This document shows, piece by piece, positions 1 through 15,962 of a stretch of DNA of 33,593 nt. How positions within the stretch are numbered: the stretch's first letter is position 1; the number at the start of each line of letters is the position of its first letter. The translations under genes and the position numbers were made by a program. The notes under the pieces are model-generated. The model saw only the letters and a list, made by a program, of their open reading frames with translations. It was not told the origin of the DNA and searched no databases. Origin of the DNA: an uncultured Acidobacteriota bacterium (lineage in GTDB: Bacteria; Acidobacteriota; UBA6911; CAINFC01); contig CAINFC010000017.1 of NCBI GenBank assembly GCA_903847975.1, positions 1-33,593 on the forward strand. Direction: 5' to 3'.

Positions 1-2252
1 TGCAAATTGATGCTGGCAAAGGCCCCGCGCTGCGGATCGAAGGGATCGTTGCGGCTGTCGTTGTAAAACGCGGCCGAAAAGCTGGATATCTCGATGGGGC
101 AGGACTCCCGCTGAATGCCGCTGGTCTGGGACGACTGGCAGGCGCTCTCCACTTCGCTGGGAGGCATGTTGGTCACCGAGACGCGCTCGAAGTTGTATCG
201 GAAAATAAGGGCGTTGACCCGGCTCAGATCGCGGATCGTCTGAAACGACGTCCCGTAGCGCGTTTCGGTAAAACTGGTCTCCTCGCTGCGCGAAGCCTGT
301 ATCTGGGCATACGATTCCAGGTTCCGGTTCAGCGGCCGGGGCTGCCGCAAACTGAGGACTGCGCTCTGGTTGACCACGCTTCCCTTGAGCCGGATCTGGG
401 CGGTACGCAGCAGGCCGCCGGGATTGAGGTGGGAAATTTCCACCAGGCCGCGCGGCCCCTCGTACTCCCGGAAGCCGAAGCCGAAGTTCAGAAGCCGGGA
501 GCGCCCTTCGCGCACTCCCACCACCACCGGCTGCCCCGCTTCCGCATCGCTGTTGCCCACCGGCCGGATGTGCACCTGGTCGAAAGCCCCGGTATTGTAG
601 AGCTTCTGCTCTCCCTCGAACATCTGGCGAACCACCACCGGCTGCCCCGTTTTCAGATCGATGTTGCGCCGCAGGGCCTTCAGGCGGGTCTTCTCCTGGC
701 CGACAAAATAGACGGGCCCGATGGAATGGGCCTTCCCCGGGTCGATCTGAAACTGGACATCCACCTTGTCTTCGACCCGCTGGTACCTGGCCTCCACCCG
801 GCAGAGCGTATAGCCCCGGCCGAGGACATGCTCCTGAAGCGATTTTCGCTCCGCCTCCAGGGCCTCGGCGGAGAAGGGATCCCCTTCCCGCAAAGCCAGC
901 TTGGATGGCAGCTCGCCTCCCGGAATCCGGTCCTCGCCCTGCAGCTCAATCCGGCCGATCCGGGCGATCTTCCCTTCCGAAAGGTCCAGGTCGACCAGGA
1001 TGTGGCCATTCTCCAGGGCGGTCAGTTCCGCGCGCTGGATGGAGGCATCCTGGTATCCCAGCCGCCGGTACTCCGCCAGGATTCTCTCCTGCCCGGCCTC
1101 GAATCCGAGCCGCGTAAAGTACCGGCCCTCCCGGATCCCCCGGTTTTCCTGGCCCATCCAGCGCAGCAGATCCCGGCGGGGAACCGCGCTGTTTCCCTGA
1201 AAGGCGATGCGGTCCACCGGCTGCTTGTCCTCCAGGGCGGCCCGATAGAAAAGCCGCGTGGCGCCGTCGCTGCCGGACTGGACTTCGTAGCTGATCTTGG
1301 CGGAAGTGTAGCCTTTGGCCAGCAGCTCGGTCTGCAGGTTCGAAGCTCCCTCGCTGAGCAGGTCCCGGTCCAGGGAGGATTCCCGGTAAACGGGAAGCAG
1401 CTCCTTCAGCTTGCGGCCCGACAGCGAGGCTCCCTCCAGAATGACGTCCACGCGCGGCCCGGCCTGGATGTCAATGCCGACGTCGACCGTGCGCCCGGGC
1501 TTATCCTGGCGGACAAAGGCCAGGGTAATCTGCGGAGTGAGATATTTCTCGCGCATGTAGAGAGCCCGCAGCTGCCGGATGGCCTCCCGCACCCGGTTCT
1601 GGGAAAATGTCTGGCCGGGCTTGAGCCGGGAGGCCTTTTGAATTTTCTCCTGGGGAAGCACCCGATCCCCGCTCCAGGATATCCCGCGCAAAATGGCGGG
1701 CAGGGACTGGTCGACCAGCAATACCAAGTCCGCCCCGCGCCCGGCAGACTGATATTCCATTCGGCTCTTGAGCATGGGGGGAAAGAAACCGTAATCGTTC
1801 AGCAGCTTTTCCGCGGCAGCCAGGAACTGCTGCTCCTTGGCGGTGCTGTAAGCCTCTCCCAGCGGGTAAAAGCGCATCAGGGCCTCTTCCATCCTCCGCG
1901 GGTCGAGCGGGCCTTTCAGGATGAGCTTGCCGAAATAGCGCTTGCCCACCAGGCGGAATTCGAGCCGGACGCCCCCGGCGGCCGGCTGGCGCAGGCACTC
2001 GATGTAGTGGAATTCGTTGAGCCGGTAGAGATTTTCGATGGCCTGGCGGATCCCCGCAGCATCCAGGTTCGAGCCGGAGGAAAAGGGGAGTAGCGCCGCC
2101 AGTTTCCGGAAGTCGACATCGATATCGGCGGAAAAAACAATTTCGGCGATCCGGTCGGGATCCTCCGCGCCGCGTGCCGACATGAATTCCGGCAGGCATG
2201 CCGCCGCCAGGCAGCCGATGAGCCATGCCAGAATGTAGCCTTTGCGCTTCAT
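1..2252 (-). CDS. Omp85 family outer-membrane protein (BamA/TamA-like), C-terminus beyond window
   Basis: The frame is open from an ATG at 2252 to the window edge, giving about 750 residues without the C-terminal end. It starts MKRKGYILAWLIGCLAAACL, a Sec signal peptide. About seven consecutive segments then show the POTRA pattern, a beta strand ending in G followed by a helix pair and a strand (for example RISWSG-like, VILEG, IAFQGNSAVP, IELQG and VYFVGQ stretches). A barrel domain begins near residue 600, where GVREGRSRLLNFGFGF and, at the edge, DSRNDPFDPQRGAF match Omp85 barrel strands. Omp85 proteins insert beta-barrels into the outer membrane or translocate polypeptides across it. E. coli BamA has five POTRAs, so this is either a long BamA or a paralogue. 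It follows the serine hydrolase by 11 bp on the same strand, likely one transcript. Family assignment is firm; the BamA role is inferred. Confidence 0.85.
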   Translation of the reverse strand, partial: MKRKGYILAWLIGCLAAACLPEFMSARGAEDPDRIAEIVFSADIDVDFRKLAALLPFSSGSNLDAAGIRQAIENLYRLNEFHYIECLRQPAAGGVRLEFRLVGKRYFGKLILKGPLDPRRMEEALMRFYPLGEAYSTAKEQQFLAAAEKLLNDYGFFPPMLKSRMEYQSAGRGADLVLLVDQSLPAILRGISWSGDRVLPQEKIQKASRLKPGQTFSQNRVREAIRQLRALYMREKYLTPQITLAFVRQDKPGRTVDVGIDIQAGPRVDVILEGASLSGRKLKELLPVYRESSLDRDLLSEGASNLQTELLAKGYTSAKISYEVQSGSDGATRLFYRAALEDKQPVDRIAFQGNSAVPRRDLLRWMGQENRGIREGRYFTRLGFEAGQERILAEYRRLGYQDASIQRAELTALENGHILVDLDLSEGKIARIGRIELQGEDRIPGGELPSKLALREGDPFSAEALEAERKSLQEHVLGRGYTLCRVEARYQRVEDKVDVQFQIDPGKAHSIGPVYFVGQEKTRLKALRRNIDLKTGQPVVVRQMFEGEQKLYNTGAFDQVHIRPVGNSDAEAGQPVVVGVREGRSRLLNFGFGFREYEGPRGLVEISHLNPGGLLRTAQIRLKGSVVNQSAVLSLRQPRPLNRNLESYAQIQASRSEETSFTETRYGTSFQTIRDLSRVNALIFRYNFERVSVTNMPPSEVESACQSSQTSGIQRESCPIEISSFSAAFYNDSRNDPFDPQRGAFASINL

Positions 2253-2263
2253 CCCTTCGACAA

Positions 2264-3274
2264 TTATTTCACCGTGCGCCCATACCGGTTGGACGCCGCA
2301 ATGCGGGCCAGCCAGGAATGGACCAGAGCTCCCGCCGAGACGATGAACTCCTCTCCGACAGCGTCCCGGGGAAGATACTTGGTCATCACCGCAAGGATGT
2401 ATGGGCGGTCCGGCAAATAGACGATGCCGGCATCGCACCAGACGCCATCCACATTGCCCGGCTTGTTGGCCACGGCAATATCCGCCGGTACGGCCTTGCG
2501 CAAGGGGCTGTCCTTGTCCTGCCTCAGAAGATCCAGCAGGCGCGCGTTCGCGGCGGCGGACAGGAACTTACCCTGGTAAAGGCCTTCCAGCAAACGCACC
2601 AGTTCCCTGGGGCTGGAGCTGTTCTCCCGGCCGGCGCGCGCCGCTACGAGGTCCATCATCTTTCTCCGCAGGCGGGTTGCCTGGAAGTTGTGGGAGGCCA
2701 GAAAAGTGTTGACGGCCTCCATGCCCGTTTTGCGCAGAAGCAGATTGGTGGCGCTGTTGTCGCTGAGCACCACCATCATCGCGGCCAGCTGGTCCACCCG
2801 CCAGCGGGGCAGCGGGCCGGGAAGCGCGTGGAGGATTCCGCTGCCGGCGACCAGGTCCTCTTTTTCCAGGAGCCATTCGTCCTCCAGCCGGAAGCGGCCC
2901 TGCTCCGATTGCCGGAACAGCTCGAGGAGCAGGGGAACCTTGATGGTGCTGGCGGTGGCGAACACTTCATCCGCATTCCAGAGCCACTCCTGCCCGCTCC
3001 TCAAATCCTTGACCGCATACCCCGCCACGCCGTCCAGGCTCTGGGCCAGGGCCCGCAGCCGCTCCTCCAGCAAGACAGCGGTCGGCCGGGAAAGGGCCGC
3101 TTCCTCCGCGGACGACGCAGGCGCTCCGGTTTGGGCCCGCAGGAGGGGGAAAGCCGCGGAGACGACACCGATCCAGAAGAGGACGGCGAGGGATAAGGAG
3201 CCCGTGCCGATCCTGAAAAACAGCGGACGTTCCTGCTTCCCTTTACGCGGAAAGGTTTGCAGATGGAGCGACAA
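2264..3274 (-). CDS. Class A beta-lactamase-fold serine hydrolase (PenP/COG2367-like)
   Basis: Residue numbers assume a TTG start at 3274 (336 aa). A hydrophobic N-terminal segment acts as signal or anchor. The S-x-x-K motif is S109-T-I-K112 and the SDN motif is S171-D-N. The KTG position reads K271-P-G. Where class A enzymes carry the omega-loop E166-x-x-L-N170, this protein reads about RRKMMDLVAA, so the deacylating glutamate is not evident. It may therefore be a slow or non-lactamase peptidoglycan-directed serine hydrolase rather than a resistance enzyme. The frame stays open upstream to 3556, but that part lies in repeat family copy A and is not protein-like. A TTG at 3274 (weak AAGGG upstream) or a CTG at 3223 (AGGA seven bases upstream) is more plausible; the choice is uncertain. 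It lies immediately upstream of the Omp85 gene. Confidence 0.75.
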   Translation of the reverse strand: MSLHLQTFPRKGKQERPLFFRIGTGSLSLAVLFWIGVVSAAFPLLRAQTGAPASSAEEAALSRPTAVLLEERLRALAQSLDGVAGYAVKDLRSGQEWLWNADEVFATASTIKVPLLLELFRQSEQGRFRLEDEWLLEKEDLVAGSGILHALPGPLPRWRVDQLAAMMVVLSDNSATNLLLRKTGMEAVNTFLASHNFQATRLRRKMMDLVAARAGRENSSSPRELVRLLEGLYQGKFLSAAANARLLDLLRQDKDSPLRKAVPADIAVANKPGNVDGVWCDAGIVYLPDRPYILAVMTKYLPRDAVGEEFIVSAGALVHSWLARIAASNRYGRTVK

Positions 3275-3605: not shown

Positions 3606-6017
3606 CTATCGATAGATCAGATATTTCTCGCGAATTTTCATAAAGCGGCCCAGATCCTCCTTCCAGGATGCGGCGATCCGGCGCGGGTCCTCGCCGTTTT
3701 TCAGCCGGGCCAGCGAGTCCTGGTTGGCCAGCAGCCGCAGGTACTTGTCCACTTCGAACTGCCTGGGATACATCTTCCAGAGCGCCGAGGCGATTTCCAC
3801 GCCGCACAGCACCGCGGGGAAGGATTCGCGGTGCAAAAGCCGGATCCGGACTCCCTGGCACGGGGTCTTGGCGAACACACTGGCCGTGGGCGTAAAGCGC
3901 GCCGCTTCGAAGCGCACCCCGGCGATCCGGCGGCGGTTCAGGCGCTGCGCCAGGGCCTGGCCGTCGATCCAGGGCGCGCCGATCAGCTCGAAGGGTGTAT
4001 CCGTGCCGCGCCCGACGGAAAGATTGGTGGTCTCCAGGGTGCCGATGCCGGGATAAAGAATGGCCTCCGTCTCGCTGCGCATGTTGGGAGAAGGGTTGAT
4101 CCAGCTGAGCCCCGTGTCCCGGAAGTAGTCCTGCCGCGCCCAGCCCCGCATGCGCACCACCTTCAGATCCAGGTCCAGCTTCTTTTCGGAGCGGAACATC
4201 TCCGCCAGCTCGCCGATGGTCATCCCGTGGCGCACGGGCATCGGGAAATAGGCGGTGAAGGATAGTTTGTCCGTGTCGGCGGTGGGCCCGTCCACGCTCC
4301 AGCCGTTGATCACATTGGGGCGATCCAGCACCACGAAAGCGATCTTGTGCCGGGCCGCCTCCTCCATCGCCAGGCCCATCGTGCTGATGTAGGTGTAGAA
4401 GCGGCAGCCGATATCCTGAATGTCGTACACCAGAACGTCGATTCCCTTCAGCATCTCCCCGGTCGGACGCGTGGTATCGCCGTACAGGCTGTGTACCGGA
4501 AGGCCGGTTTTCGGATCCCGCCCGGAGGCCACCTTTTCATCCTTTACCCCCTGCAGCCCGTGCTCCGGGCTGAACAGGGCCACCAGCTGAAAAACCCCGG
4601 ACGAGGCCAGCAGATCCACCGTGCTCTGCCCGTCCCGGGTTCGGCCGGTATGGTTGCTGATCAGGCCGACCCGCTTGCCCCGCAGCATCTCGAAGCCTTC
4701 CTCGCGGAGAACGTCGACCCCCAGGAAGATCGGCTTGGGCGGCGCTCCGTCGCTTCCCGCCAGGGATACGATGGCCGCGCCGGCCGCCTTGGAGTGGGGC
4801 AGCCGGGCCCAGGTGGCCGCATCGACGTCCAGGATGGAGGCAGCGACCACGTTGGCCACCTGGCCCCGCAGCGGAACGGCATCGCCTTTCCCCCCGGGGT
4901 GCAGGCGGCTGGTCAGCAGCACGATGAAGCTCTGGGTAAACGGATCGATCCAGAGGGAAGTGCCGGTGAAGCCGGTGTGGCCGAAGGAGCCGACGGGGAA
5001 AAAATCGCCCCGGTTGCTGGAATAGCGGGTGTCGATATCCCAGCCGTATCCCCGCCAGTCCCTGCTTTCCGCGGGATTCTGGCGGGAGCTCATGGCCCGC
5101 ACCGCGGCCGGGCTGAGCACCCGCACCCCGCCGTATTCGCCGCCGTTGAGGATCGTCTGGGCGTAGACGGCGGCATCGGCGGCGGTGGAGAACAGGCCGG
5201 CATGTCCGGCAATGCCTCCCATGCGGTGGGTGGTGTAATCGTGAACCGCCCCGCGGATCATGGCCCCGTCACGCTTTTCCGTCGGGGCAATCCGGGGCAG
5301 CCACTCGGAGGGAGGCATGTAGGAGGTGTTTTTCATCCCCAGCGGGCGGAAAAGCTTCTCCTGGCAAAGCTGCGCCAGGGGCAGCCGGGAAACGCGCTGC
5401 AGAATGTCGCCGAGCAGGAAAAACCCGATATCGCTGTAGATGAACCGCTCGCCGGGAGGAGCCGCCAGCACCTCGTCGCACCCCAGCCGGATGGTGTTTT
5501 CATAGCCGCTGAAAGGGAGACTTTCCGGAATATCCGGCCGCAACCCGGAAAAGTGGGTCAGCAGGTGGCGCAGATTGATGGCCTCCTTGCCGTGAGCGCC
5601 GAATTCCGGAAGATACTGGGCCACGCGATCCGTCAGCCGCAGCTTCCCCTCTTCCGCGGCCTGCATCATCAGCGGGGCGGTCACCATTACCTTGGTGAGC
5701 GAGGCCATGTCGAAAATGGTGTCCAGGGTCATCGCCTCGCGCTCCGGCACCATGGAGCGGAATCCGTAGGCTTTCTGAAAAACGATGGTCCCCTTGCGGG
5801 CCACCAGCAGCACCGCCCCGGGCACTTCCGACCGCTTCATCGATTGCTCCACGACGGCATCGAGCTGGGCGAGCTTTTCGGCAGACATCCCCACCGATTC
5901 CGGAGGTCCGCTTTTTAAAACCGGGCCGCCGGCCCCGGCCGGGCGCGCCGCACCCAGCAGGAAAAGCAGACAAAAACACACAACCGCCCATCCGTTCTTT
6001 CCGAATAATGTCTTCAT
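3606..6017 (-). CDS. Secreted fusion: class C beta-lactamase-like serine hydrolase + NamZ/DUF1343 exo-muramidase
   Basis: 803 residues from the ATG at 6017, chosen because MKTLFGKNGWAVVCFCLLFL starts a good signal peptide; the frame is open up to 6116. Residues about 30-410 are a PF00144-type serine hydrolase with S106-L-T-K109, Y194-S-D and H347-T-G at the three active-site motifs. Residues about 430-803 are DUF1343, with GVDVL, GLISNHTG, FSPEHGL and a DIQDIGCRFYTYISTM stretch. DUF1343 proteins of the NamZ type release terminal MurNAc from peptidoglycan fragments. The class C-like partner of NamZ in Bacillus, AmiE, is an amidase that removes peptide from MurNAc. I infer a single polypeptide doing both steps outside the cytoplasm. 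The divergent neighbour carries the NagZ activity. The stop at 3606 is followed by repeat copy A. Domains are firm, substrates inferred. Confidence 0.88.
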   Translation of the reverse strand: MKTLFGKNGWAVVCFCLLFLLGAARPAGAGGPVLKSGPPESVGMSAEKLAQLDAVVEQSMKRSEVPGAVLLVARKGTIVFQKAYGFRSMVPEREAMTLDTIFDMASLTKVMVTAPLMMQAAEEGKLRLTDRVAQYLPEFGAHGKEAINLRHLLTHFSGLRPDIPESLPFSGYENTIRLGCDEVLAAPPGERFIYSDIGFFLLGDILQRVSRLPLAQLCQEKLFRPLGMKNTSYMPPSEWLPRIAPTEKRDGAMIRGAVHDYTTHRMGGIAGHAGLFSTAADAAVYAQTILNGGEYGGVRVLSPAAVRAMSSRQNPAESRDWRGYGWDIDTRYSSNRGDFFPVGSFGHTGFTGTSLWIDPFTQSFIVLLTSRLHPGGKGDAVPLRGQVANVVAASILDVDAATWARLPHSKAAGAAIVSLAGSDGAPPKPIFLGVDVLREEGFEMLRGKRVGLISNHTGRTRDGQSTVDLLASSGVFQLVALFSPEHGLQGVKDEKVASGRDPKTGLPVHSLYGDTTRPTGEMLKGIDVLVYDIQDIGCRFYTYISTMGLAMEEAARHKIAFVVLDRPNVINGWSVDGPTADTDKLSFTAYFPMPVRHGMTIGELAEMFRSEKKLDLDLKVVRMRGWARQDYFRDTGLSWINPSPNMRSETEAILYPGIGTLETTNLSVGRGTDTPFELIGAPWIDGQALAQRLNRRRIAGVRFEAARFTPTASVFAKTPCQGVRIRLLHRESFPAVLCGVEIASALWKMYPRQFEVDKYLRLLANQDSLARLKNGEDPRRIAASWKEDLGRFMKIREKYLIYR

Positions 6018-6152
6018 GATCCTGATAAATCCGCTGCCGGCCGCGGGCGATCCTGCTGGTGATCCGCCGCCGGAAATGTATGCTATAGTTTCGAGGTCAG
6101 CGGGGCACCCTGCCACCCTGCCGATCCCTGGTTCGTAATGCGAAAAATTTTC

Positions 6153-6181
6153 ATTATAAGACGTAAAGCTTCCTGATTCAA
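6153..6181 (-). promoter_or_regulatory. Sigma70-type promoter for the serine hydrolase-NamZ gene
   Basis: On the minus strand TTGAAT (6176-6181) and TATAAT (6153-6158) are separated by exactly 17 bp. The -10 is a perfect consensus and the -35 matches TTGACA at four of six positions. Transcription would begin near 6146 and give a leader of about 130 nt before the ATG at 6017. The surrounding 200-bp region separates two divergent genes. For the plus gene only a weak TATAAG (6155-6160) with TTCGTA (6132-6137) is visible, overlapping the minus -10, so the two directions may compete. Confidence 0.55.
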
Positions 6182-6217
6182 AGGATAAAAGATAGAAATG
6201 CCCGAGAGGAAAGCCCC

Positions 6218-9109
6218 ATGAGAATTGCTTCCACGTTCCGGCTGTGCTCCCTTCTTGCGATCTTTGCCCTGGTGCTGCCTGCCATCCGGGCGGCCGCGCC
6301 GCCGCGGCGCGGGACCGGTTCGGATCCGGGCTTTCTGCCGCCGGACACCCGGTGGGTCCAGCGCACGCTCAAACGGATGAGCCTGCGCGATCAGATCGCC
6401 CAACTGATCCAGGTCCGCATCTTCGGCCGCTACTACCCGAAGGAGAGCGCGGAGTTTCAGTCCCTGGTTCGCGAGATCCAAGAGAATCATGTCGGCGGCC
6501 TGATCCTGTTTGCCGGAAACATCTATGAATCGGCGCACCTGATCAACCGGCTGCAGGAAACCTCCGCTCTCCCCTTGATCGTTGCCGCCGACTTCGAGTC
6601 CGGGGCATCCTTCCGCATCGCCGATACGACGTCTTTCCCCTGGACCATGGCGGTCGGGGCGGCCGGCTCCGAAGACCTGGCCTTCCGGCAGGGCGCGGTC
6701 ACCGCCCGCGAGTCGCGGGCCATGGGTGTGCACTGGATTTATGCGCCGGTCATGGATGTCAACAACAATCCCGACAACCCGGTGATCAGCATCCGCTCCT
6801 TCGGCGAGGATCCGCAACAGGTGGCCCGGCTGGGCTCGGCCTTCATACGCGGGGCCCGCTCCCAGGGGGTGATGACCACCGCCAAGCATTTCCCCGGGCA
6901 CGGCGACACGGCCACCGACACCCACATCGGACTGGCCCGGATACCCGCCACGCGCGAGCGGCTGGAATCGCTGGAGCTGATCCCGTTCCGCGCCGCCATC
7001 CGGGCCGGCGTGGATTCCATCATGACCGCCCATCTCGCGGTGCCCAACCTGACCGGGGAGGCGGACATCCCCGCCACCCTGTCTCCGCGAATCCTGACGG
7101 ACCTGCTCCGTAACGAGCTGCAGTTCCCGGGGCTGCTGGTCACCGACGCCATGGAAATGGGCGGAATCACCACGCGCTACTGGGGCGGGCTGGCCGCGGT
7201 CAAGGCCATCCAGGCGGGGGCCGATGTGCTGATCCTTCCGCCGGACAACACGGTGGCCATCGACGAGATCCTGCGGGCGGTGCGGGACGGGCGGATACCG
7301 GAAGCGCGCATCCGCCAGTCCGCGGAAAAGCTGCTGCTGGCCAAGACCCGTCTGGGTCTGCACAAAAGGCGCACCGTCGACCCGACGCGCATTCCCGATC
7401 TTATCGCCGCGCCGGAAAGCCGCAAGCTGGCCCAGGAGCTGGCGGACCGCTCCCTGACCCTGGTGCGCAACGAAAAAGGACTGCTCCCCTTCCACCCGGT
7501 CCGCCCCCCCTCCCGGATGGTTCACCTGCTGCTGGCCGGAGAGCAGGAAGCTGCGCCCCTGCCCTCCTATCTCGCGGAGCTGAAAAAGCGGTTCCCCGAA
7601 ATGCGCACTCTCATCGCCACGCCGAGGCTCGCTCCGGACCAGGTGTCCGAGATCCTGCAGCAGGCGGATTGGGCCGATGCCGTTCTTTGCAGCTCGCTCG
7701 TGCGGGTGATTTCCGGGAAAGGAACCGTCGCCCTGCCGGGAGCCCTGCACCGGCTGATGGAACAGCTCTTCCTCAAAGGCAAGCCGGTCGCCTGGGTCAG
7801 CTTCGGCAATCCCTACCTGCTGCGCGTCTTCCCCCAGGGCCCATCGGCCTACGTCTGCACCTTCAGCTATTCCGATGTTTCCCAGGTGGCGGCCGCCAAG
7901 GCGATCTCCGGCGAGATCCCCTTCCTCGGGAAAATGCCGGTCTCCATCCCGGGTTGCACCTCCGTCGGCGCGGGCCTGGAAACCCGTCCGGTCTTCACCG
8001 GGCTGAACTTCCCGCCGCCGGACGCCGCCGCCGTTCCGCCGGCTGCCTTTCAGCCGATCCGGGAGCTGCTGGCCTCCTACGTCGAGCGGCGCGCTTTTCC
8101 GGGCGCCGCGCTCCTGGTCGGATACCGGGGCTCGGTGGTTTTGGATGCGGCGGCCGGGAGGCTGGACTATTCCCCGCAGAGCGCCGCGGTGGATCGCAAC
8201 ACGGTTTACGATCTGGCTTCCGTTTCCAAGGCCGCCGGAACCACCTCCGCGGCCATGAAGCTCGCGGAGGAAGGGCGACTGCAGCTCGAGGCCGCGGTGC
8301 AGGATTATCTGCCGGAGTTCAAGGGGCAGGACAAAGAAAAAGTCAAGGTGCGGCACCTGCTCGAGCACCGCGCCGGTCTTCCTCCGTTCCTGCTGTTTTA
8401 CAAGGAGGCCAAAGGCTACGAGCCGATTCTCAGGCGGATTTGCGAAACGCCGCTCGAAGCCCCGCCCGGCAGCCGGACGAAATACAGCGACCTGGGGATG
8501 ATCCTGATGGGGGAGATCCTTTCCCGGGTTTCCGCCAGGCCGCTGAACCGTTACCTGGCGGAAGAGATTTTTCAGCCCCTGGGAATGACCTCGACGACCT
8601 ATCTGCCGCCGAAGTCCTGGCTGGCGCGCATTGCCCCGACGGAGCAGGACCCCTGGCGCGGGCGGGTGGTGCGCGGCGAAGTGCACGATGAAAACGCCTT
8701 CGCCATGGGCGGCGTCGCCGGCCACGCCGGCCTGTTCGGGTCCGCACGCGACCTGGCTGTTTTCGCCCAGATGATGATGAATCGCGGGCTTTACGACCAT
8801 CGCCGCACCTTCCAGCCGGCAACCGTTTCGCTCTTCACCCGGGCGCAGGAGCCGCCGGAAAGAGCCCGCGGCCTCGGCTGGGGCAAGGCGGTCCCCGGCT
8901 ACTGGACGGAGCGGGTTTTCTCTCCGTCGGCTTTCGGCCACACCGGCTTCACCGGCACCATGATCTGGGTGGATCCCGGGCAGGAGCTGTTCATCGTTCT
9001 GCTCACCAACCGCGTCCATCCGACGCGCAGCAACAACCTGGTGGAGGAGGCCCGGGAGAAAATCTGCGAAGCGGTGGTGAAAGCCGTCCGGGAATCCGCC
9101 CGCCCCTGA
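6218..9109 (+). CDS. Secreted fusion: GH3 NagZ-like beta-N-acetylglucosaminidase + class C beta-lactamase-like serine hydrolase
   Basis: 963 residues with a signal peptide over residues 1-26; AGAGGAAA lies just upstream of the ATG. Residues about 45-600 are a GH3 catalytic barrel plus a C-terminal alpha/beta domain. The NagZ signature KHFPGHGDTATDTH occupies 223-236, supplying the His/Asp general acid-base loop, and the nucleophile is D310 in LLVTDAMEMGGI. NagZ enzymes cleave GlcNAc from GlcNAc-MurNAc fragments. Residues about 610-963 are a second PF00144 domain with S668-V-S-K671, Y756-S-D and H908-T-G, closely resembling the serine hydrolase half of the divergent gene (shared GGVAGHAGLF and GHTGFTGT stretches). 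Together the two genes could strip GlcNAc, MurNAc and peptide from muropeptides in the periplasm. Activities are inferred from families. Confidence 0.9.
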   Translation: MRIASTFRLCSLLAIFALVLPAIRAAAPPRRGTGSDPGFLPPDTRWVQRTLKRMSLRDQIAQLIQVRIFGRYYPKESAEFQSLVREIQENHVGGLILFAGNIYESAHLINRLQETSALPLIVAADFESGASFRIADTTSFPWTMAVGAAGSEDLAFRQGAVTARESRAMGVHWIYAPVMDVNNNPDNPVISIRSFGEDPQQVARLGSAFIRGARSQGVMTTAKHFPGHGDTATDTHIGLARIPATRERLESLELIPFRAAIRAGVDSIMTAHLAVPNLTGEADIPATLSPRILTDLLRNELQFPGLLVTDAMEMGGITTRYWGGLAAVKAIQAGADVLILPPDNTVAIDEILRAVRDGRIPEARIRQSAEKLLLAKTRLGLHKRRTVDPTRIPDLIAAPESRKLAQELADRSLTLVRNEKGLLPFHPVRPPSRMVHLLLAGEQEAAPLPSYLAELKKRFPEMRTLIATPRLAPDQVSEILQQADWADAVLCSSLVRVISGKGTVALPGALHRLMEQLFLKGKPVAWVSFGNPYLLRVFPQGPSAYVCTFSYSDVSQVAAAKAISGEIPFLGKMPVSIPGCTSVGAGLETRPVFTGLNFPPPDAAAVPPAAFQPIRELLASYVERRAFPGAALLVGYRGSVVLDAAAGRLDYSPQSAAVDRNTVYDLASVSKAAGTTSAAMKLAEEGRLQLEAAVQDYLPEFKGQDKEKVKVRHLLEHRAGLPPFLLFYKEAKGYEPILRRICETPLEAPPGSRTKYSDLGMILMGEILSRVSARPLNRYLAEEIFQPLGMTSTTYLPPKSWLARIAPTEQDPWRGRVVRGEVHDENAFAMGGVAGHAGLFGSARDLAVFAQMMMNRGLYDHRRTFQPATVSLFTRAQEPPERARGLGWGKAVPGYWTERVFSPSAFGHTGFTGTMIWVDPGQELFIVLLTNRVHPTRSNNLVEEAREKICEAVVKAVRESARP

Positions 9110-9460: not shown

Positions 9461-10855
9461 TCAGGGGCTTTCTTCCCAGGCGCCCTGCAGCAGCCGGCCG
9501 GCGGGCTCCAGGTTGGAAAACTCCACGCCGGCAGCCGGCGTTTTCCGGCGATAGAAATAGAGGGTCCGCGCTCCCGGCACGATTTCCCCTTGGGGAGAAC
9601 CTTCCTTCAAATCGGAGGGCGATACCACCCAGCCGCCGGCAGCCACCTCCTTTTCGCCGGCAAACACCGACAGATCGCCCACATCGGCGACCGCACCCCG
9701 CTCCTGCCGCTGCTTTTTACCGTCAAAGGATTCGTTGAAATTGAGGCCCACATCGGTGGTGAAAGGCCCGGCGGCATTGCCGTTCCAGACGGTGATGCCG
9801 CGGAAGATCCGGCTGAAGATCAGACCGCCCTGGTTTTCGGGCAGGGCATCGTACACCGCCGGATTGGCATCCTGCACCGACCCGTCCGCCAGGGCCTGCA
9901 GCGCTTTGAGCAGCGCCAGGAAATTGACGCGAACCAGAAATTCCTCGCCGCCTTTCCCCGGCCAGCCGGACTCGATCAGCACCGTATAGGTTCCCCAGGC
10001 GGACATCCGGTCGCCGAAAGCGCGGACGTTGAAGCTGTCGTCGTAGCGGGCCATTCCCCCGTAGCAGTAAGGCCCCAGCGCTTCATAAATCAGGGAGCAG
10101 ATTTTTTTGGAGCGCACCCGCCCCAGGTTGTTGCCGCCGCCCGGCTCGTAGGCTACGGCCAGCAGGGAAATCATCACCGGCTTGCGGGTCTCTCCGGCCG
10201 AGGTGCGCCGGTCCTGGTTGTGAAGATTGAAGCCGATCTCCGGCCGGTATCGGTCGCGAATTTCCTTCAGGAACCGCCCTTCCGGCGTGGTCAGGGTGAG
10301 GGCGTCGCGGTTGATGTCGATGCCCTGGGCGTTGCGCCGGCGGGTCCGCTCGGCCCCGTCCGGATTCAGCATGGGGATAAAGAAGAGCTGCAACCGCTCC
10401 TGCAGCTGCCGCACCAGCTTGTGCTTCGGCTGGGAGACCAGGAAGTGGAGAAGATCCAGCAGTGCGGCGGTGGCCGTCGGCTCGTCGCCGTGCATCTGGG
10501 ACCAGAGCAGGATTTTCAGGTCTCCCTGGCCCCATTGCGCCAGCGGGAGCGGCCGACCTTCGGCCGACCGGCCCTCGAACTCCACGCGGAGAGCCCCTTT
10601 GGATTTCTTCCGGAGGTCGTTGAGAGCCGACTGCACGTCCGGGCCGCGCAGCTGATAGGGGTCCGACGGGGATACCTTTACCTTGGGCCAGAGCTCCCAG
10701 ATCCGGGCCGCAGTTATTTTGACCTTCTTCGGCGCCGGTTCGGCCGCCCGGAGCCCCGCGCCGAATGCAAGAACGAGGCAGGCGCATCCCAGGGCCTTCC
10801 GGGTCTTTCGCAAGTGACGGGAAAACGGCTGGTCAGGAAGGAAAGTCTGTCGCAT
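9461..10855 (-). CDS. M14-family zinc carboxypeptidase, exported
   Basis: 464 residues. A basic N-terminus and hydrophobic stretch (about residues 20-38, ending GLRAAEP) indicate export. The zinc ligands H122 and E125 lie in QMHGDEPT, the third ligand is H212 in GFNLHNQ, substrate-binding residues sit in RRRNAQGIDINRD (about 172-184), and the catalytic glutamate is E295 in TVLIESG. All active-site positions of M14 metallocarboxypeptidases are therefore present. About 110 residues after the catalytic domain are of unknown role. M14 enzymes remove C-terminal residues from peptides, and some members cleave peptidoglycan stem peptides; the substrate here is unknown. The start at 10855 has AGGA seven bases upstream and lies 9 bp after the metallophosphoesterase stop, at the end of a five-gene run. 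Confidence 0.88.
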   Translation of the reverse strand: MRQTFLPDQPFSRHLRKTRKALGCACLVLAFGAGLRAAEPAPKKVKITAARIWELWPKVKVSPSDPYQLRGPDVQSALNDLRKKSKGALRVEFEGRSAEGRPLPLAQWGQGDLKILLWSQMHGDEPTATAALLDLLHFLVSQPKHKLVRQLQERLQLFFIPMLNPDGAERTRRRNAQGIDINRDALTLTTPEGRFLKEIRDRYRPEIGFNLHNQDRRTSAGETRKPVMISLLAVAYEPGGGNNLGRVRSKKICSLIYEALGPYCYGGMARYDDSFNVRAFGDRMSAWGTYTVLIESGWPGKGGEEFLVRVNFLALLKALQALADGSVQDANPAVYDALPENQGGLIFSRIFRGITVWNGNAAGPFTTDVGLNFNESFDGKKQRQERGAVADVGDLSVFAGEKEVAAGGWVVSPSDLKEGSPQGEIVPGARTLYFYRRKTPAAGVEFSNLEPAGRLLQGAWEESP

Positions 10856-15449: not shown

Positions 15450-15962
15450 ATGCCGAAAAAGAAAATCGATCCGGTCATTCTCCGCTTCCTGGGCGGATTC
15501 CTGGGCATGGCCCTGCTCCTCAGCGTCCTTCTGCAGGTGCCCTGGGTGCAGGAGCAGGTTCAGAATCCCTACACCCGGTTCATCGCCCGGCTGGACGGCT
15601 GGATCCTCGGAGCCATGGGGATCCCGGTTACGGTCAGCGGGACGCTGGTGCGCCAGGGCAATTACGCCGTGGAAATCAAGCGCGGCTGCGACGGGCTGGA
15701 CGTGCTCATCCTGTTTCTATCGGCCGTCGCGGCCTACCCCTTTTCCTGGAAAAGCCGCGCGGCCGGCATTCTGCTGGGCGGCATCCTGATTTTCTTTCTC
15801 AACCTGATTCGCACCGTGGCCCTTTTCCTGATCGGGCGGGTCAGCGATCCGGCCACATTCGAGATCTTTCATGTTTACATCTGGCAGTTTGCGATCATTC
15901 TTCTGGTGCTGGTTTTCTGGATCTACTGGGTCGGACGGGAAAAAAGGGCTGTCGCTGAATAA
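15450..15962 (+). CDS. xrtH: Exosortase, XrtH-like
   Basis: 170 residues with several membrane segments (about 13-31, 84-98, 104-126, 141-160). The exosortase/archaeosortase catalytic residues are present: C80 in EIKRGCDGLDV, R121 in FLNLIRTVALFLIG and H141 in FEIFHVYIWQ. Exosortases are inner-membrane transpeptidase-like enzymes that cleave short C-terminal sorting signals. The small size and the following membrane gene resemble the XrtH subgroup, which is linked to IPTLxxWG-type C-terminal signals. No protein in this window ends with such a signal. GGGACAAGT precedes the ATG. The family is firm; the XrtH subtype is from recalled resemblance. Confidence 0.82.
   Translation: MPKKKIDPVILRFLGGFLGMALLLSVLLQVPWVQEQVQNPYTRFIARLDGWILGAMGIPVTVSGTLVRQGNYAVEIKRGCDGLDVLILFLSAVAAYPFSWKSRAAGILLGGILIFFLNLIRTVALFLIGRVSDPATFEIFHVYIWQFAIILLVLVFWIYWVGREKRAVAE

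Follow-up and report, generated by a model that had tools for sequence, protein, structure and literature searches.

Two divergent genes encoding fusions of putative muropeptide-degrading enzymes in an uncultured Acidobacteriota bacterium

Organization of the locus and properties of its domains

The window investigated in this study, a stretch of DNA of 33,593 nucleotides from the genome of an uncultured Acidobacteriota bacterium (contig CAINFC010000017.1), contains two divergently oriented genes, each of which joins a glycosidase to a serine hydrolase (SH) domain. The first gene, termed P1 (3606-6017, minus strand), encodes a serine hydrolase (PF00144, 5e-69; 4884-5864) followed by NamZ_N (8e-82; 4074-4670) and NamZ_C (3e-45; 3612-4061) domains, an organization assigned with Pfam, and full-length homologues of the protein were aligned. 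The second gene, P2 (6218-9109, plus strand; 963 aa), encodes a NagZ-type GH3 N-terminal domain (GH3_N, 8e-86; 6383-7336), which is followed by a GH3 C-terminal-like domain defined by a weak match below the cut-off (GH3_C, 5e-5; 7457-7954) and by a second serine hydrolase (PF00144, 2e-72; 8060-9040). The Pfam assignments thus confirm the presence, location and opposite domain order of both fusions, as proposed in a preliminary description of the locus, with a revised start of P1. The mechanically defined reading frame begins with a GTG at position 6116 (3606-6116, minus strand), but the ATG at 6017, which would result in a protein of 803 aa, is the likelier start, since it opens a stretch resembling a signal peptide (MKTLFGKNGWAVVCFCLLFLLGAARPAGA) and has an AGGA in front of it, as judged by eye. 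In P2, a ribosome site (AGAGGAAAG) precedes a protein beginning with MRIASTFRLCSLLAIFALVLPAIRA, and the signal peptides that had been proposed for both proteins were found plausible on inspection by eye. On the minus strand, the 200 bp between the likely start codons (6018-6217) hold a single sigma-70-like site (6181-6153, TTGAAT-17-TATAAT), a match to the consensus only, compared to a mean of 0.1 in shuffled sequences.

The integrity of the catalytic features, claimed initially from the sequence, is borne out in alignments, where the motifs SLTK, YSD and HTG are found in the first serine hydrolase (SH1) and SVSK, YSD and HTG in the second (SH2). Aligned with Bacillus NagZ, the GH3 domain of P2 displays the KHFPGHGDTATDTH loop, the D234-H236 dyad and the nucleophile D310 and thus carries the features that define NagZ-type enzymes, namely an Asp-His dyad on the loop KHFPGHGDT..D-x-H and an Asp nucleophile. 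The NamZ region of P1 scores above the cut-off for both of its families (PF07075, 274 bits; PF20732, 155 bits), and is 45% identical to NamZ of B. spizizenii; its clade in our tree is sister to that of Bacillus NamZ. The glutamate of its PEHG motif aligns with residue 92 of the 414-aa Bacillus NamZ, a position which, in work on NamZ from 2021, is said to play a catalytic role. AlphaFold models of the two proteins, calculated from alignments without plasmid-derived rows, are of moderate confidence (pLDDT 75 and 72, pTM 0.52 and 0.63), with a disordered linker between SH and NamZ, and they match DUF1343 (4k05), serine hydrolase folds of the EstG type and, as best match of the GH3 domain of P2, B. 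subtilis NagZ (3bmx).

The fusion genes are surrounded by several other frames. Next to P2, Pfam identifies an M14 zinc carboxypeptidase (9461-10855, minus strand). Directly downstream of P1 lies a class A lactamase-like protein (PF13354; 2264-3556, minus strand) with STIK and SDN motifs and a KPG replacing KTG, whose scores stay below the cut-off of all listed class A models. An outer-membrane protein of the POTRA/Omp85 type (BamA/TamA-like; 3-2438, minus strand) is truncated by the edge of the window, and a frame at 15450-15962 (plus strand), upstream of a region resembling polysaccharide-export genes, appears by eye to be related to the exosortase/archaeosortase family.

Family placement of the serine hydrolase domains

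Both serine hydrolase domains were at first assigned to class C. Their membership in the serine hydrolase family PF00144 is retained, but scores and phylogeny place them close to AmiE and PBP4B instead. The best NCBIfam model for either domain is PBP4B, with 175 bits for SH1 and 192 bits for SH2, compared to 67 and 65 bits for the class C lactamase model, whose cut-off of 415 bits is not reached, and both domains carry HTG instead of the KTG motif of class C enzymes. Since their scores are also below the curated PBP4B cut-off of 385 bits, the two domains are not assigned to this equivalog, although a mode of action like that of AmiE is possible for them; AmiE of B. spizizenii, to which they are 32-34% identical, reaches 764 bits with the same model. 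HTG and YSD motifs are common to the domains of the window, AmiE and PBP4B; AmpH contains KTG and YSN. In a maximum likelihood tree of 66 rows, which is rooted by midpoint only and includes few references and outgroups, 61 rows comprising AmiE, PBP4B and both domains of the window are split off (96/93) from EstG/EstU and AmpC/AmpH. Within this group, AmiE forms a sister pair with E. coli PBP4B (100/99), SH2 is part of a clade of GH3-fused domains (100/96) and SH1 of a clade of SH and SH-NamZ proteins (98/98), both as sister clades to the AmiE/PBP4B equivalog. Scores, motifs and tree, the latter within the sampled references, thus led us to reject a true class C lactamase or family VIII esterase, and the grouping with beta-lactamases or esterases that would have spoken against the original proposal is not observed at the level of sequence. 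Similarly, a recent duplication of the domain was rejected, as SH1 and SH2 are 45% identical and reside in two separate, supported clades.

On this basis, the two domains are likely amidases. We have also considered that they would instead be D-Ala carboxypeptidases, endopeptidases or esterases, which would trim the peptides or the acyl groups and leave the sugars to the glycosidases. Such activities would be in line with the penicillin-binding protein in the name of their best model and with the envelope esterase EstG as their closest structural match. However, PBP4B has as its sister AmiE, whose activity as a MurNAc-L-Ala amidase is established (PMC5061867) and which matches the same model, whereas EstG and EstU are outside of the clade, which renders this alternative improbable. 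The fusions themselves provide independent evidence of the Rosetta-stone type for a joint action of the poorly characterised PBP4B-like serine hydrolases with NagZ and NamZ.

Gene context and arrangements in relatives

The gene context of homologues provides strong evidence for a role of the family in muropeptide breakdown. In two genomes of the same phylum (G025 and G075), genes for a LysR protein, a BadF-type kinase, MurQ (above cut-off in G025), a sodium:solute symporter (SSF), GH3 and SH-NamZ are found together, and in a third (G073), a MurQ-like gene with SIS domain adjoins an SH gene divergent to SH-NamZ. A Deinococcus plasmid shows the gene order AnmK-MurQ-SH-GH3, and in E. coli yfeW, which encodes PBP4B, comes after murQP. 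As stated in the preliminary description, amiE, nagZ and namZ are separate neighbours in B. subtilis, where they belong to the operon murQRP-amiE-nagZ-ybbC (PMC5061867), and we find them in this order in the loci of Bacillus species. The combination of SH-NamZ and GH3 with the MurQ etherase, a BadF-type kinase and a symporter in one operon of relatives makes the breakdown of muropeptides the best-supported function.

The divergent pairing of both fusions was searched for in 297 genomes of the phylum and 38 genomes of the class, and both two-domain fusions are found together in the window genome only. A second genome with both was rejected, since the long GH3 frames of nine candidates contain no detectable SH domain. 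The single fusions are more widespread. SH-NamZ matches, either near-full-length or long, are present in 58 of the 297 phylum genomes, often adjoining a GH3 gene, and about a dozen genomes of this sample contain GH3-SH with intact motifs, four of which (G001, G017, G044, G069) encode it divergent to a separate NamZ. One further genome (G015) unites all three enzymes as NagZ-SH-NamZ in a single open frame of 1390 aa (L147:7553-11722, plus strand), which follows genes for an M14 peptidase and a sodium:solute symporter, and two families of the class sample (f7 and f9) contain stand-alone SH proteins, 52-57% identical to those of the window, near NamZ, with an M32 peptidase in between. Beyond the phylum, where our comparison is based on plasmid records, SH-NamZ is found in Burkholderia and Cupriavidus and GH3-SH in Bacteroidota. 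Genes for AnmK, SH, NamZ and NagZ are also located close together on a plasmid of Halorussus halophilus (NZ_CP044525), and NagZ and NamZ are neighbours on other haloarchaeal plasmids. As archaea do not contain murein, this cluster suggests a scavenging of bacterial walls.

A distinct pattern is observed for a subset of the GH3 fusions. In eight genomes and in one of two copies of a ninth (G300), including a related (sister) genus, the GH3-fused SH has lost its SxxK, YSD and HTG motifs, and at nine loci (L154-L160, L244, L052) the GH3 domain has remained intact, leaving what appear to be pseudo-amidase domains. The appended domain can thus persist without catalysis, and fusion does not by itself imply amidase activity of the SH. 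It is therefore conceivable that SH would mainly bind the stem peptide and position the glycosidase and, when fused to GH3, would itself catalyse little or nothing, as the inactive domains keep their place in these relatives. Yet both domains of the window retain every motif, as does each SH-NamZ fusion inspected within the phylum sample, and we thus consider a mere binding function highly improbable for the proteins described here.

Proposed function and relation to known systems

By their sequence features, P1 and P2 make up a functionally coherent pair of putative muropeptide-degrading proteins, predicted to release GlcNAc, peptide and MurNAc. In light of the known activities of NagZ, AmiE and NamZ, it appears probable that the pair constitutes a secreted or periplasmic set for the stripping of muropeptides. 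In such a set, the NagZ domain would take off the terminal GlcNAc and thereby expose MurNAc, whose stem peptide would be cleaved by an AmiE-like domain before NamZ cuts away the peptide-free MurNAc, so that P1 and P2 would alternate along the glycan or muropeptide from its non-reducing end. Two old SH lineages would have been joined independently to NagZ and to NamZ, which provided each glycosidase with an amidase of its own. The neighbouring M14 carboxypeptidase possibly acts on the released peptides. In a more far-reaching proposal, which we regard as doubtful in its entirety, the fusions would form a dedicated pair for alternating exo-degradation, with amidases from distinct lineages on the two glycosidases. 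Across the phylum, the SH module would have shifted between NagZ, NamZ and the two combined, with a single chain of three enzymes as the extreme, and in one lineage it would have become catalytically dead and perhaps peptide-binding.

The remainder of the host genome bears on the purpose of such a set. It encodes a second, stand-alone NagZ (C35), with dyad and nucleophile preserved, and a second, stand-alone NamZ (G000:C205:18998-20158; L142:9448-10659, plus strand), where the equivalent of Glu92 is replaced by Gln. A full replacement by the fusions was thus rejected, and the set is not simply condensed from separate genes, as had been suggested. The Gln-containing NamZ variant (PQHG) is a stand-alone protein that is widespread in the phylum, and its 23 sequences, the host paralogue and 22 others, share one clade (98/92), which indicates an old and conserved change rather than decay. 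HMM searches of the assembly, rated 99% complete, detected neither MurQ nor AnmK and no convincing MurK-type kinase. The sole BadF match, a double-domain frame of 1023 aa, resembles dehydratase activators by its size, and among 36 matches of the APH family obtained in a search for AmgK, the latter was not singled out. Known pathways of MurNAc catabolism are thus not supported for this organism, which raises the question of the destination of freed MurNAc. From the function assigned initially, the extracytoplasmic stripping of peptidoglycan accords with the MurNAc-catabolic operons of homologues, but its use for self recycling is weakened by the absence of MurQ and AnmK. The same enzymes could serve to feed on the peptides and GlcNAc of other bacteria's walls instead of recycling the own murein, a purpose compatible with the proposed stripping activity. 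The missing MurQ and AnmK, the adjoining M14 peptidase and the apparent secretion of both proteins, as judged by eye, would agree with such feeding, but exo-acting enzymes require prior lysis and no genes for predation or lytic endo-hydrolases were noticed in the locus, and we thus find it possible but rather unlikely.

Irrespective of its purpose, the stripping set turns the known recycling route of NagZ, AmiE and NamZ into multi-enzyme chains that are accessible to experiment, and the natural variants SH-NamZ, NagZ-SH, NagZ-SH-NamZ and NagZ with a dead SH could readily be compared to learn if the processing of muropeptides benefits from fusion. The double fusion also illustrates how freely the known three-enzyme recycling set is re-wired. 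Among its closest known counterparts is the AmiE-NagZ-NamZ system of B. subtilis (ybbEDC in the murQRP operon), which resembles the window in its three enzyme families, their extracytoplasmic location and adjacent genes, as well as in the NamZ glutamate, the NagZ dyad and the SH motifs. In contrast to the separate genes of Bacillus, the window contains two divergent fusions with two SH domains and no mur genes nearby. The architecture of P2 is shared, by its description, with RmNag3 of Rhodothermus marinus, which consists of GH3 domains 1 and 2 and a C-terminal domain of lactamase fold and carries a signal peptide, and for which beta-N-acetylglucosaminidase activity was measured with action on acetyl-chitooligosaccharides and a role in peptidoglycan turnover proposed by analogy to NagZ/AmiE, but no adjacent NamZ fusion is described (PMC6987092). 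On plasmids of Burkholderia savannae and Cupriavidus, SH-NamZ proteins show the same fusion in the same order as P1, to which they are 37-40% identical across roughly 90% of the length; they form a very long branch in the trees and adjoin genes for a polysaccharide deacetylase and a DUF4015 glycosidase. A survey from 2008 already listed exactly both architectures, DDPept-DUF1343 and GH3-DDPept (e.g. YP_439122.1, NP_811352.1 and YP_444518.1), in different organisms and without tested function or pairing (PMC2605481). Neither fusion is thus new by itself; novelty lies in the divergent double fusion, a rare pairing, and in the pattern of shuffling.
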